NCBI GenBank assembly: GCA_017992455.1
Contig: JAGOOP010000016.1
Location: forward strand, 1-32,467
Source: Candidatus Omnitrophota bacterium
GTDB lineage: Bacteria; Omnitrophota; Gorgyraeia; Gygaellales; Profunditerraquicolaceae
DNA length: 32,467 nucleotides
Reading direction: 5' to 3'
Of the stretch, positions 1,159 to 6,070 are shown piece after piece (the stretch's first letter is position 1; each line of letters starts with the position of its first letter). Both the position numbers and the translations under genes were made by a program. The notes under the pieces were generated by a model that saw nothing but the letters and a program-made list of their open reading frames with translations, searched no databases and was not told where the DNA came from.

Positions 1159-3396
1159 ATGAAAAGAATATTATTATTTATCCTGCCGATTTTGATCATT
1201 ATAGCGGCGGCATTCACGGTGTTCGGCATCGTCCAGGTGAGGTTCGAGGAGGAAAAGCTTCTCGATGACGTGCAGCGCAAGTCCCGGTCGATCGCCGAAA
1301 GCATGGAGATATCCGTTAAGCACGTCCTTGAGGATAATGACCTCAAGACCGCCAATTATCTCGTTGAAAAGTTTCAGACGCGCGAGCGGTTACAGGGATG
1401 CGTTATCTACGACCGGACAGGGGCGGTATTCGCCATTACCCGCAGGTTCCTTGATTGGAAAGAAAAGAATAAGCCGTATCTGACAGAAGCTATAGGAACA
1501 AAGGAGCCCCGCAGCGGCATTGAACGATTCAAGGAATACACGGTGTACAGTTATGTTCTGCCGATCCTGGACGACAATGCGTCCCTTATCGGCCTTGTGG
1601 AAGTTATCCACGACACGTCATTTGTGTTCACCCGCCTTGCCGAGTTGTGGAAAAGGATCAGCGGCACGCTTGTTACGCTGGTTATTTTGATCCTTTTGAT
1701 CTCGATGTTCATCCATAAGCAGATATTCGTGCTTCCGGTCCTGCGGCTGACGGAATGGTTCCATCATTTCCAGAAAGGGGAGACCGATGCGCAGCATCCG
1801 ATCAGGGAAAAAGGAGAGCTTGGAAAGCTGGCGAGCGAGGTCGAGCAGGTCGCGCTGAGCCTGCGGGTCGCGCGCAAGACCATATCCGACGTAGCGTCCG
1901 TGAAACTGCAGAAAGACGATGTCTGGACCGAATCGAAGCTGCGCAACCTTATCCAGGCAAAATTGGGCGATAAGACGCTGTTCGTCGTCTCGAACCGCGA
2001 ACCGTATATGCATGTTATGGACGAGGCGACGGGTTCGGTGGCCTGCATACGGCCGGCGAGCGGCGTTGTTACGGCGATCCATCCGATCCTCTGCGCCTGC
2101 GGCGGCACATGGATCGCGCACGGCGGAGGCAATGCCGATCGGAAATACGTCAATTCCAAGGATAAGCTCGGCGTCCCTCCGAATGATAACCGGTATATCC
2201 TTAAACGTGTCTGGCTCACGAAGCAGGAAGAGGACGGATATTATTACGGATTTTCCAATGAGGGCCTCTGGCCCTTGTGCCACAATACCCACACGCGGCC
2301 CCTGTTCCGGGAAGAGGATTGGCAGATATATAAACAGGTGAACCGGAAATTCGCCGACAGCCTGCTCGAAGAGCTTCCGGCGCAAAGCCCGTTCGTTTTC
2401 ATCCAGGATTATCATTTCACCCTGCTGGGCCAGATGATCAAGGAGAAGCGGCCTGACGCAAAGATCGCGCTTTTCTGGCATATTCCGTGGCCCACGCCCG
2501 AGGCGTTCCAGATATGCCCGTATCAGAAAGAGATCCTTGACGGGATGCTCGGCTGCGACCTGATCGGGTTCCATGTCCAGAATCACTGTAATAATTTCCT
2601 CGACACGGCCAACCGGCTGCTTGAATCCCGCGTTGACACGGAGAAATTCAGCGTCGTGCGGTCTGAGAAAGAGACGTTCGTGCGCTCGTTCCCCATCAGC
2701 GTCGACACGAATCCCGGGGGCGGCGTGTCCGAGCGAGATACGAGGCGCAAAATGGAGCGGCTCCGCCAGGAGTTCAATCTGAAGGATGTGATCGTCGGCG
2801 TCGGAGTGGACCGCATCGATTATACTAAAGGGCTTGTCGAACGGATCCTCGCCATCGACCGCTTTTTCGAGAAGTATCCGCAGTACCGGAGCAAGGTCGT
2901 ATTCGTCCAGCTTGCGTCCCCGAGCCGCACGCACATCAAGCGCTACCACGATCTCATATCGGAGATCGACGAACTGGTGGAGAAAACGAATTGGAAGCAT
3001 ATGGACGGTACATGGAAGCCGATCCTGTACCTGAAACGCCATTTTTCCGCTGATGAGATCGCTCCGTTCTACGCGATGGCTGATTTCTGTATCGTCAGTT
3101 CGCTTCATGACGGCATGAACCTGGTGGCGAAGGAATACGTCTCGGAGAAACGCGACGATCACGGCAGCCTGATCCTGAGCCAGTTCACCGGCGCTGCCCG
3201 GGAACTGACCGACGCGATACTGATCAATCCCTATTCCATCGAGGAGTTCGCCGACAATATATTGCAGGCGGTCGAGATGCCCCTTGAAGAGCAGGTCAGG
3301 CGCATGCAGAACATGCGCAGGATCGTTTCCGAGAATAATGTATACCGTTGGGCGGCTAATATCATCACGGACCTGACCGCGTTAAAGAACGTATGA
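1159..3396 (+). CDS. otsA: Membrane sensor/HAMP-fused trehalose-6-phosphate synthase (GT20)
   Basis: The C-terminal half (about residues 272-745) is a GT20 trehalose-6-phosphate synthase, which joins UDP-glucose and glucose-6-phosphate. Family motifs are present: VVSNREPY (276-283), QDYHF (416-420), FWHIPWPTPEAF (439-450), VDRIDYTKGL (550-559, carrying the Arg and Lys that bind substrate phosphates), HDGMNLVAKEY (650-660) and SQFTGAAREL (674-683). The N-terminal 270 residues do not belong to ordinary OtsA: transmembrane helix 3-25, an extracytoplasmic domain of about 140 residues of Cache/PAS-like appearance (for example LQGCVIYDRTGAVFAITRR), helix 168-190, then a HAMP-like linker (about 188-242) and coiled segment. 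This is chemoreceptor or histidine-kinase input architecture attached to a metabolic enzyme, so activity may be set by an external cue (inference). Typical OtsA is about 450-500 residues. It is the first gene of the operon; otsB starts two bases after its stop codon. Confidence 0.93.
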   Translation: MKRILLFILPILIIIAAAFTVFGIVQVRFEEEKLLDDVQRKSRSIAESMEISVKHVLEDNDLKTANYLVEKFQTRERLQGCVIYDRTGAVFAITRRFLDWKEKNKPYLTEAIGTKEPRSGIERFKEYTVYSYVLPILDDNASLIGLVEVIHDTSFVFTRLAELWKRISGTLVTLVILILLISMFIHKQIFVLPVLRLTEWFHHFQKGETDAQHPIREKGELGKLASEVEQVALSLRVARKTISDVASVKLQKDDVWTESKLRNLIQAKLGDKTLFVVSNREPYMHVMDEATGSVACIRPASGVVTAIHPILCACGGTWIAHGGGNADRKYVNSKDKLGVPPNDNRYILKRVWLTKQEEDGYYYGFSNEGLWPLCHNTHTRPLFREEDWQIYKQVNRKFADSLLEELPAQSPFVFIQDYHFTLLGQMIKEKRPDAKIALFWHIPWPTPEAFQICPYQKEILDGMLGCDLIGFHVQNHCNNFLDTANRLLESRVDTEKFSVVRSEKETFVRSFPISVDTNPGGGVSERDTRRKMERLRQEFNLKDVIVGVGVDRIDYTKGLVERILAIDRFFEKYPQYRSKVVFVQLASPSRTHIKRYHDLISEIDELVEKTNWKHMDGTWKPILYLKRHFSADEIAPFYAMADFCIVSSLHDGMNLVAKEYVSEKRDDHGSLILSQFTGAARELTDAILINPYSIEEFADNILQAVEMPLEEQVRRMQNMRRIVSENNVYRWAANIITDLTALKNV

Positions 3397-3397
3397 C

Positions 3398-4192
3398 ATG
3401 AAATATCTCCTGAAGGAGTGGGGCGCTTTAACAAGGCGGATCAAGGCCGGGTGGTTATTATTGTTCTTTGATTTCGACGGAACGCTTTCACCCATCGTAC
3501 CCAGGCCGGCACAAGCCGGATTGCCTGGTTCGACGAAGTCATTGCTGCGCAGGATCGCGGGTATGTCTTCGTGCCGGGTTGCTATTGTCAGCGGCAGGGC
3601 GCTTGAGGATATCAGGAAAAAGGTCGGCCTCAAGGGCGTCGTATATGTCGGCAATCACGGCTTGCAGATCGCAGGGCCTGGCGTGCGTCATACCGTGCGG
3701 CTGAGCGCAGGGTACCGCAAGGCGATCGGGCTGTTACGGCCGATGATCGCGGAAGCGGTCAGGAAATACAGCGGGGTTTTGATCGAAGACAAAGGGTGTA
3801 CGCTTTCCGTGCATTACCGCCGCGTATCCGCCGGGCAAAGGCGCGCGGCGCGCAATGCCGTTGATAGAATCGTGCGTTCGTACGGCTCCGGACGCCTCGT
3901 CAGGATCCGGCACGGCAAGATGGTCGTCGAGATCAGGCCTGCGTCCGGGTGGAATAAAGGAAACGCAGTGCGCTGGCTTACCGAACGATGGGCCGCGATG
4001 GATAAAGGGGTTGGATCAATCCCGTTGTATTGCGGGGATGACTCGACTGATGAAGACGCGTTCCGCGCGCTTGCGCACAAAGGCATCACGGTCGTCGTGG
4101 GCAGGCGCCGGTCAAGCGCAGCGCGGTATTATCTTCGTTCTCAGGACGAAGTGGACGAACTTTTAAAGCGTATCGTCGCGCAAAGGGCGTGA
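3398..4192 (+). CDS. otsB: Trehalose-6-phosphate phosphatase (HAD superfamily)
   Basis: This 264-residue HAD-family phosphatase removes phosphate from trehalose-6-phosphate made by the upstream OtsA. HAD motif I is DFDGT (25-29, nucleophile Asp25 and acid/base Asp27), motif II is the SGR (65-67) with GNHG (85-88), the motif III lysine is in GWNKGNAV (Lys187), and motif IV is GDDSTDED (213-220). The length is typical for OtsB. It is cytoplasmic, with no signal sequence. Only one base separates the otsA stop from this ATG, so the two are cotranscribed and probably coupled; no strong Shine-Dalgarno is visible. Confidence 0.93.
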   Translation: MKYLLKEWGALTRRIKAGWLLLFFDFDGTLSPIVPRPAQAGLPGSTKSLLRRIAGMSSCRVAIVSGRALEDIRKKVGLKGVVYVGNHGLQIAGPGVRHTVRLSAGYRKAIGLLRPMIAEAVRKYSGVLIEDKGCTLSVHYRRVSAGQRRAARNAVDRIVRSYGSGRLVRIRHGKMVVEIRPASGWNKGNAVRWLTERWAAMDKGVGSIPLYCGDDSTDEDAFRALAHKGITVVVGRRRSSAARYYLRSQDEVDELLKRIVAQRA

Positions 4193-4197
4193 ATATC

Positions 4198-4872
4198 ATG
4201 GATCCCTTACCACAGGCAAAAGAGCCTTTCAGGTTCCACACGCGGTTGAACCTCACTGAATTGACCGGATTGCGCGCATCGGTCCTGCCGCAGCTCTTGA
4301 AATTGATCAAACAGGTCCCCGGCGCATGCATCTATCATCATACCCACCGGTTCCTCGAGCAGCATCAGTATCTGTCGCCTGAGCCGCCGAATGATTTCGC
4401 GTACTGGGTGAGCGAGGTGATCGGCGAGGATGAGCTTGCAGAGCAGCTTGCCAGTATCGATACCGTACAATTCCCCACGATCCGCAGCCTCCGCGATCAG
4501 ATAGCTCAAACCATCGAGACATATGTTGCGCAGAATCCGCTGGCAACGCTGCGTTTTGCCGGCGCGGGAGAAGAGTTCCATTTCATCAAGTCGGTCAGTT
4601 TTATCATACCGACGCCGTATATCGCGAACAACCTCGAAGAGTTCGCTCAGATACTCGAAAAGATCACCATTGATTCGATATACTTCCATGTGTTCGAGGC
4701 CCGGCTGCGCCTTGAGCATCAGACCAATGATTTTTCCAACTGGATCGATACCGCGCTGGGCTGCGCCGATATCGCCGGGAAGCTTGCGCGCCTGGATCCG
4801 TATGCCTACACCATGGAGGAGTTGCGCAGGCGCATCATTTCAATCGTAAGGGCAGGATATGCCAAGACTTGA
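4198..4872 (+). CDS. DUF5752-family protein between otsB and treT
   Basis: A cytoplasmic, mainly alpha-helical protein of 224 residues matching my recollection of the DUF5752 family, which is often encoded next to trehalose synthase genes; no biochemical function is known to me. It is an internal duplication: the first half has IYHHTHRFLEQ followed by NDFAYWVSEVIGEDELAEQLASID, and the second has IYFHVFEARLRLEHQTNDFSNW followed by ADIAGKLARLD, each ending in a helix ..LR..I... The start at ATG 4198 has AAAGGG 10 bases upstream; an in-frame GTG at 4189 overlaps the otsB stop and is an alternative. The end overlaps treT by 14 bases. Position suggests a partner or regulator of TreT (inference). 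Confidence 0.75.
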   Translation: MDPLPQAKEPFRFHTRLNLTELTGLRASVLPQLLKLIKQVPGACIYHHTHRFLEQHQYLSPEPPNDFAYWVSEVIGEDELAEQLASIDTVQFPTIRSLRDQIAQTIETYVAQNPLATLRFAGAGEEFHFIKSVSFIIPTPYIANNLEEFAQILEKITIDSIYFHVFEARLRLEHQTNDFSNWIDTALGCADIAGKLARLDPYAYTMEELRRRIISIVRAGYAKT

Positions 4873-6070
4873 TGATTATATCCCTGTCGTGACCCAGCCG
4901 GTCATCGACGATCTGCGGCTCCTTGCCGAGATGCTGCGGGGGAAGGTCATCCGCAATATCAATTCGACCGCTGTCGGAGGCGGCGTTGCGGAGATCCTCA
5001 ACCGTATGGTGCCGTTCCTGCAGGAACTGGGCATTGACGCGCGCTGGGACGTCATTAAAGGCGGGGAGCGGTTCTTTGCCGTTACCAAGAAGTTCCACAA
5101 TGCCCTGCATGGCAAGTCAGAGCGTATTACCGATGATGATCTGCAGGCTTTTATTCAGACCAGCCGGACGAACCTGGCCGAGATGGACCTGAGCGGGGAC
5201 ATCATATTCGTCCACGACCCCCAGCCGATCATTCTGGTCGAGAAGAAGGCGTCGAACAAGTGGATCTGGCGCTGTCATGTGGATGTTTCCGAGCCCCAGC
5301 ACAAGGTGTGGGATTTCTTGATGCAATATATTCCCCGTTACGACGCGGCGGTGTTCTCTGCGCCGTCTTTTTCCCGGCCGTTGCCCGTGCGCCAGTTCCT
5401 TATCTCTCCGTCCATCGATCCGCTGAGCGATAAGAACAAAGAACTGCCGCAGTCAGCGATCAACGCCGTGCTCGACAAATATGAGATCCCCCGGGACAAG
5501 CCGCTGATCACGCAGATATCGCGGTTCGACCGTTTAAAGGACCCGGTCGGCGTGATCGAGGCGTATAAGCGGGTCAAGAAATACAACGAGTGCCGGCTCA
5601 TCCTTGCGGGAGGCACGGCGACGGACGATCCTGAGGGGCTCCAGGTGCTTGAGGAGGTCAGGGAACGCGCGGGCAAAGATAAGGATATCCATATCCTGCT
5701 CATGCCGCAGAACGACATCGACGTCAACGCGCTGCAGCGCGCCTCGACCGTTATCATGCAGAAATCCCTGCGCGAAGGGTTCGGCCTGACCGTGTCCGAG
5801 GCGCTGTGGAAGGCAAAACCGGTCGTCGCCTCTCATGTCGGCGGGATCCCTTTACAGATCAAGAATAAGTATTCCGGCCTTTTGTGCCGTTCCATAGACG
5901 GCGCCGCGTTCGCGGTAAAGCAATTGCTCAACAACCCCGGATATGCCAAAAAGCTCGGGGAGAACGGCAGGGAGCATATACGCAACAACTTCCTGCTGAC
6001 GCGGCACCTCAAGGATTACCTGCTGTTATTTTTGTCTTTGTATCATGCCGAAGACGTGGTATATTTGTAA
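4859..6070 (+). CDS. treT: Trehalose synthase TreT-type (GT4 trehalose glycosyltransferring synthase)
   Basis: A 403-residue GT-B glycosyltransferase of family GT4. It shows the TreT pattern: an N-terminal AVGGGVAEILNRM (38-50, donor loop), VHDPQP (118-123), RCHVDVSEP (138-146), ISRFDRLKDP (220-229, phosphate-binding Arg222 and Lys227) and the EX7E motif REGFGLTVSEALW (305-317, Glu306 and Glu314). TreT enzymes couple NDP-glucose and glucose directly to trehalose, and in some organisms run in reverse to harvest glucose. GGCAGGA (4851-4857) lies close before the ATG, and the start overlaps the DUF5752 gene by 14 bases. With otsA/otsB in the same operon the cell has two trehalose routes. It is the last gene of the operon. 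Confidence 0.9.
   Translation: MPRLDDYIPVVTQPVIDDLRLLAEMLRGKVIRNINSTAVGGGVAEILNRMVPFLQELGIDARWDVIKGGERFFAVTKKFHNALHGKSERITDDDLQAFIQTSRTNLAEMDLSGDIIFVHDPQPIILVEKKASNKWIWRCHVDVSEPQHKVWDFLMQYIPRYDAAVFSAPSFSRPLPVRQFLISPSIDPLSDKNKELPQSAINAVLDKYEIPRDKPLITQISRFDRLKDPVGVIEAYKRVKKYNECRLILAGGTATDDPEGLQVLEEVRERAGKDKDIHILLMPQNDIDVNALQRASTVIMQKSLREGFGLTVSEALWKAKPVVASHVGGIPLQIKNKYSGLLCRSIDGAAFAVKQLLNNPGYAKKLGENGREHIRNNFLLTRHLKDYLLLFLSLYHAEDVVYL

Follow-up and report, generated by a model that had tools for sequence, protein, structure and literature searches.

Among the Omnitrophota, uncultured bacteria about which little is known, a gene occurs in which a membrane-bound sensor is joined directly to a predicted trehalose-6-phosphate synthase (TPS). 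We analyzed a stretch of 32,467 nucleotides from one such bacterium (contig JAGOOP010000016.1), which we call the window. The protein encoded by this gene consists, in order, of a transmembrane (TM) helix, a Cache-type domain, a second TM helix, a HAMP domain, a short coiled-coil stalk and a complete GT20 catalytic domain. This Cache-HAMP-GT20 fusion is a conserved family found in Omnitrophota and no fewer than three other phyla. Each of the parts is known; what is new is their combination and the use of a metabolic enzyme as the output of HAMP. On a slight balance of probability, we regard these proteins as an ancient one-component receptor family of Omnitrophota and neighboring phyla, whose HAMP domain would directly gate the synthesis of trehalose 6-phosphate (T6P). 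Metabolic flux would then be set by an outside ligand, without a kinase, a second messenger or transcription as intermediary.

Domain architecture of the fused protein

The features of the gene and its neighbors are listed in Table 1. A preliminary description of this DNA had claimed two membrane segments, HAMP similarity in residues 188-242 and a complete GT20 domain with the motifs of its family. These claims hold. Hydropathy (Kyte-Doolittle) gives two TM segments, family members match the Pfam HAMP model, a family profile matches the HAMP-containing PDB sequences of Tsr and AF1503, and the catalytic residues of GT20 are intact.

Table 1. Positions in the window of the fused gene, its domains and the adjoining genes of the operon
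Feature	Position	Strand	Basis
Whole gene, Cache-HAMP-GT20 trehalose-6-phosphate synthase (predicted)	1159..3396	+	Single ORF without internal stop, 745 aa; at least 72 further one-ORF homologues
TM helix 1	1168..1224, aa 4-22	+	Kyte-Doolittle peak 3.05; helix in AlphaFold model
Extracytoplasmic Cache-type sensor domain (predicted)	1231..1653, about aa 25-165	+	Weak Pfam sCache_3_2/dCache_1 at 34-149; profile match to WalK Cache (5is1); Foldseek
TM helix 2	1657..1713, aa 167-185	+	Kyte-Doolittle peak 2.69
HAMP domain	1720..1875, aa 188-239	+	AS1 to aa 205, 14-residue connector, AS2 from aa 220; Pfam 191-236 (12 of 14 members); PDB Tsr and AF1503; helix-loop-helix in model; Pro193 and Ala232 in 92 of 92
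Stalk (AS2 helix on to aa 252) and WT-x-x-x-L helix (aa 256-269) before GT20	1876..1974	+	AlphaFold model helices 220-252 and 258-269
GT20 trehalose-6-phosphate synthase domain (predicted)	1975..3378, aa 273-740	+	Pfam; OtsA structures; Foldseek
Trehalose-6-phosphate phosphatase (OtsB type), same operon	3398..4192	+	PF02358, E = 1e-41; TIGR00685, 160.8 bits, above cut-off
DUF5752 protein, same operon	4189..4872	+	PF19027, E = 1.1e-67; conserved neighbor
TreT-type trehalose synthase (GT4), same operon	4859..6070	+	PF21269, E = 1.1e-54

Taken alone, the window protein scores below the Pfam cut-offs for both sensor modules. HAMP (PF00672, residues 191-236) gives 14.5 bits (E = 0.047; curated cut-off 25) and sCache_3_2 gives 19.3 bits (cut-off 28.4) at residues 34-149, where dCache_1 likewise falls under its cut-off. 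Therefore, evidence from the family was needed for both assignments. Among the N-termini of 14 close family members, the HAMP model matches 12 (best E = 4.7e-5) and sCache_3_2 matches all 14 (best E = 2.4e-5). We also built a profile from 33 N-termini, some of which share no more than about 21-27% identity with the window protein, and searched it against PDB sequences. Residues 31-147 matched the extracellular Cache domain of WalK (5is1; E = 6.4e-5), residues 167-236 matched TM2-HAMP of a Tsr-type chemoreceptor (E = 6.7e-5), and the HAMP domain of AF1503 was found as well (E = 0.002). PDB sequence matches to MCM2 and ubiquitin were dismissed as chance.

An AlphaFold model of residues 1-270 (mean pLDDT 80) contains TM1, a Cache-like domain, a long helix that comprises TM2 and AS1 and ends at residue 205, a HAMP connector of 14 residues (206-219) and an AS2 helix that runs on to residue 252. 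Confidence in the full-length model is lowest at the HAMP connector and stalk (pLDDT 50-60). When residues 1-270 were compared with known structures by using Foldseek, the top match was full-length WalK (9a5d), with its TM-Cache-TM-HAMP arrangement, over 256 columns (E = 4.2e-12). Below it were sensor domains of KinD, WalK, DcuS and CitA (TMt 0.50-0.82); the matched KinD and CitA entries include ligand-bound forms. From these profile and model comparisons, the region between the two TM helices is predicted to adopt a Cache fold closest to those of WalK, KinD, DcuS and CitA.

HAMP domains comprise two helices and a connector of 14-15 residues (PMC5936718). The geometry in the window protein is canonical, in that the connector length fits this range, the domain directly follows TM2, and P193 is 100% conserved. 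Conserved hydrophobic residues at positions 194, 197, 201 and 204, and at 221, 224, 228, 231, 235 and 238, follow a/d spacing. Compared with shuffled sequences, hydropathy is significantly periodic in AS1 (0.02), and the result for AS2 (0.07) is marginal and falls short of significance. According to Pfam, the DHp and ATPase domains of a sensor histidine kinase are absent from the window protein, and GT20 comes after HAMP.

The GT20 domain matches PF00982 over residues 274-740 with 410.9 bits (E = 9.3e-123; cut-off 32.5), and it resembles OtsA structures in both profile (5jij, E = 1.2e-83) and Foldseek (5jio, TMt 0.91) comparisons. Active-site residues were placed by alignment to 5jij and from the residues named in a published study (PMC6879718). 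All are present: R280, Y362, D417, H441, R552, K557, R590, D651-G-M-N-L655 and E659. Across 93 sequences, no substitution occurs at the scored active-site positions, and gaps are confined to truncated sequences. Residues equivalent to the published ligands of glucose 6-phosphate and of the donor are kept, with the exception of Gln146, which corresponds to His419 here (PMC6879718).

T6P is the putative product. Among the matches listed, the top product-specific GT20 model, apart from PRK14501 (484.2 bits; cut-off 634), is TIGR02400, the NCBIfam equivalog for OtsA. Its score of 435.6 bits is under the cut-off of 564.85, which could mean that the domain yields another product, such as glucosylglycerol phosphate, and that the receptor controls another solute. 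We consider this very unlikely, because the model for glucosylglycerol-phosphate synthase scores far lower (316.8 bits; cut-off 569), the adjoining gene encodes a T6P phosphatase (TPP) that exceeds its own cut-off, and the glucose-6-phosphate ligands other than Gln146 are retained.

Distribution, operon context and descent

A genome scan for the N-terminal module found at least 75 loci. Among the matches listed, 72 of 75 carry this module and GT20 in one ORF. All 20 of the divergent members retrieved, with N-termini that are 24-30% identical, are also full fusions. The preliminary description had read the window gene as one intact frame and had named a frame error joining two genes as the way in which this could be wrong. 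The reading is borne out. The probability that a frame or assembly error created the fusion is negligible, since the one-ORF homologues (at least 72, plus the 20 divergent ones) come from independent assemblies and several phyla, and an artefactual fusion is thereby ruled out.

A few loci depart from the common form. In a genome of the same genus (JAKPTF010000097.1; L018 and L026), a TAG stands at codon 200 in place of the conserved W200 in AS1 of HAMP. No other defect interrupts this frame, in which translation from an ATG at residue 233 might yield a soluble synthase of 513 aa. This TAG may be a sequencing error, a pseudogene or a natural un-fusion. In another metagenome-assembled genome (MAG), the ORF at 240-2135 of locus L094 has lost aa 139-250 in frame, that is, part of Cache, TM2 and HAMP, and its product has 631 aa and one TM helix; the loss may be a real deletion or an assembly chimera. 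Locus L020 (G015 contig C46) has a divergent GT20 domain within an open frame of 4210 aa.

The N-terminal profile matched 125 of the 384 sampled Omnitrophota genomes. By hand count, 77 of the matches are close and nearly all full-length, and about 35 more are divergent; some of the weak matches left over are probably HAMP kinases. Roughly 110 of the 384 genomes carry the N-terminal module, and GT20 is above its cut-off in 217. Among 74 genomes of Margulisbacteria, six strong matches and one weaker match were found, and clear matches were present in 4 of 45 genomes of the phylum Goldbacteria and 2 of 4 of the phylum Desantisbacteria. For these three groups, named as in the depositors' titles, the basis is an open frame of about 750 aa, with one or two genomes per group fully checked. 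In the phylum of a genome titled Eisenbacteria (G400), GT20 frames are mostly 500-620 aa, and loci L085 and L078 may therefore reflect transfer or mis-binning.

The preliminary description suggested checking whether GT20 proteins with HAMP cluster in a clade. They form a conserved family, and in a tree of catalytic domains, one branch (SH-aLRT 92) divides the fused from the soluble groups. The fused side includes one sequence from Aminobacter, on a long branch. This GT20 protein (L121:2785-4602), from Aminobacter aminovorans plasmid pAA02, is 47% identical to the window protein and has a single N-terminal TM helix, with neither Cache nor HAMP. Membrane attachment alone is therefore possible in this GT20 lineage. 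On plasmids, no fusion of this build was found in a search that would miss a diverged sensor: none of 359 records reaches 80% coverage of the query. The simplest reading of the tree, whose root is not firmly fixed, would be that the fusion arose once and was then inherited vertically, with some transfers and with losses.

The order TPS, TPP, DUF5752, TreT is kept in nearly all sufficiently long loci among the matches listed. DUF5752 separates TPP from TreT in nearly every locus, whether TPS is fused or soluble, and its protein is likely a functional partner in trehalose metabolism. The operon in the window (3398-6070) combines two routes to trehalose, TPS/TPP and TreT. In sister Omnitrophota genomes, the same slot is occupied by a soluble TPS of about 490 aa that has a 47-52% identical catalytic domain and no TM, Cache or HAMP, and that belongs to the separate soluble clade. 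Most of these soluble enzymes begin at the W-x-x-x-L helix, which is the HAMP-to-enzyme linker of the fused form. One genome (G063) has receptor-fused and soluble TPS together (L107 and L153). Some Omnitrophota do carry OtsA-OtsB fusions, of about 724-744 aa; therefore, ORF length alone was not used to assign fusions within this group. For the window gene, an OtsA-OtsB fusion was rejected, since its additional residues lie at the N-terminus and TPP has an ORF of its own.

Conservation of the relay and its possible function

Spacings along the path from membrane to enzyme are almost invariant. The distance from W164 to P193 is 29 residues in 91 of 91 sequences, and those from P193 to G207 (14) and from L224 to A232 (8) are the same in 92 of 92. 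From A238 to W256, which spans HAMP to enzyme, the distance is 18 in 88 of 92 sequences and 17 in the other four, and W256 and R280 are separated by 24 in all 93. These spacings stay near-fixed even when N-terminal identity is about 25%, whereas the HAMP connector and the Cache loops vary. Among close members, mean pairwise identity is 0.72 for HAMP and 0.74 for the enzyme, compared with 0.48 for TM2. Estimated from substitution rates, the sensor is under strong purifying selection: dN/dS in the sensor and in HAMP is about 0.03-0.09 wherever dS can be estimated, and one divergent pair gives 0.11 for HAMP plus linker.

The near-fixed HAMP spacing and stalk length, together with this selection on the sensor, favor a ligand-sensing receptor. 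The protein is probably a receptor that spans the membrane as a dimer and has an enzyme as its output; on binding of a small solute, HAMP would gate TPS activity directly. Dimerization, ligand binding, coupling to TPS activity and the sign of the effect are all predicted elements of this proposal, and direct post-translational switching of TPS is our best inference. In brief, the extracytoplasmic Cache domain would bind a small solute, and binding would shift TM2. The parallel four-helix bundle predicted for HAMP in the dimer would then change its packing, and the fixed-length stalk would relay this change to the N-terminal Rossmann domain of TPS, whose first strand it would move. TPS activity would be altered as a result, by activation or inhibition, and the T6P formed would be dephosphorylated by the adjoining TPP. 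When OtsA closes, helix 1 and a neighboring loop of the N-terminal domain shift by up to about 12 Angstrom (PMC6879718), and therefore strain there is a plausible means of opening or closing the active site. Depending on species, OtsA forms dimers or tetramers (PMC6879718), which suits a dimeric HAMP.

An alternative is that TM-Cache-HAMP is only a membrane anchor and dimerizer, which holds the synthase near the envelope, transporters or partner enzymes, and that HAMP no longer signals. The Aminobacter relative indeed has a bare TM anchor, and the soluble synthases that fill the same operon slot in sister genomes imply that the sensor is dispensable for catalysis. However, an anchor needs no Cache domain kept by purifying selection, no canonical HAMP connector and no near-fixed distance from HAMP to enzyme. 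We therefore consider it unlikely that the module only anchors, and prefer the ligand-gated receptor.

The domain architecture given in the preliminary description, and its idea of a HAMP-linked sugar synthase, are backed by sequence, structure, conservation and comparative genomics. Osmolarity, which it suggested as the signal, is possible but gains no specific support here. A direct osmosensor would respond to osmolarity itself, as membrane tension or crowding, instead of to a ligand, and would switch on the synthesis of trehalose. Consistent with such a role, trehalose belongs to the compatible solutes, and Omnitrophota MAGs have been inferred to make it (PMC8542988). Against it are the nearest Cache folds, with the ligand-bound forms among the KinD and CitA entries, and the sequence and context, which offer no pointer to osmolarity. 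Direct osmosensing is accordingly quite improbable in our estimation. Since KinD, DcuS and CitA bind small molecules, a soluble ligand is the likelier signal.

Relation to known receptors and enzymes

To our knowledge, the known OtsA proteins are soluble. The window protein shares with OtsA (CAZy GT20; 1gz5, 5jij) a complete catalytic domain (30-35% identity), the same active-site residues and an adjoining T6P phosphatase gene, but it differs in having a membrane receptor fused at its N-terminus. In published work, OtsA is controlled by metabolites that act at an interfacial site (PMC6879718).

With WalK-type sensor histidine kinases, of which 9a5d gives the top structural match to residues 1-270, the protein has the TM-Cache-TM-HAMP order in common. 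The cytoplasmic output of WalK consists of PAS/DHp/CA kinase domains, whereas here it is a biosynthetic glycosyltransferase. As in HAMP-linked receptors generally, HAMP would relay from TM2 to the cytoplasmic output. Such receptors include histidine kinases, adenylyl cyclases, chemoreceptors, phosphatases and diguanylate cyclases. The outputs covered in two papers on HAMP (PMC3585426, PMC5936718) are signaling proteins, with no metabolic biosynthetic enzyme among them. In the open-access literature, we found no report of HAMP joined to an output domain that is a trehalose synthase, a GT20 enzyme or a glycosyltransferase of any kind. Domain databases may hold HAMP-GT20 architectures elsewhere.

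If the coupling is true, HAMP relays would reach beyond signaling outputs, with a receptor acting directly on a metabolic enzyme. Because the enzyme is easy to assay and soluble counterparts in the same position of the operon provide matched controls, this family would permit a clean test of HAMP transmission. It would also begin to show which signals uncultured Omnitrophota perceive when producing trehalose.
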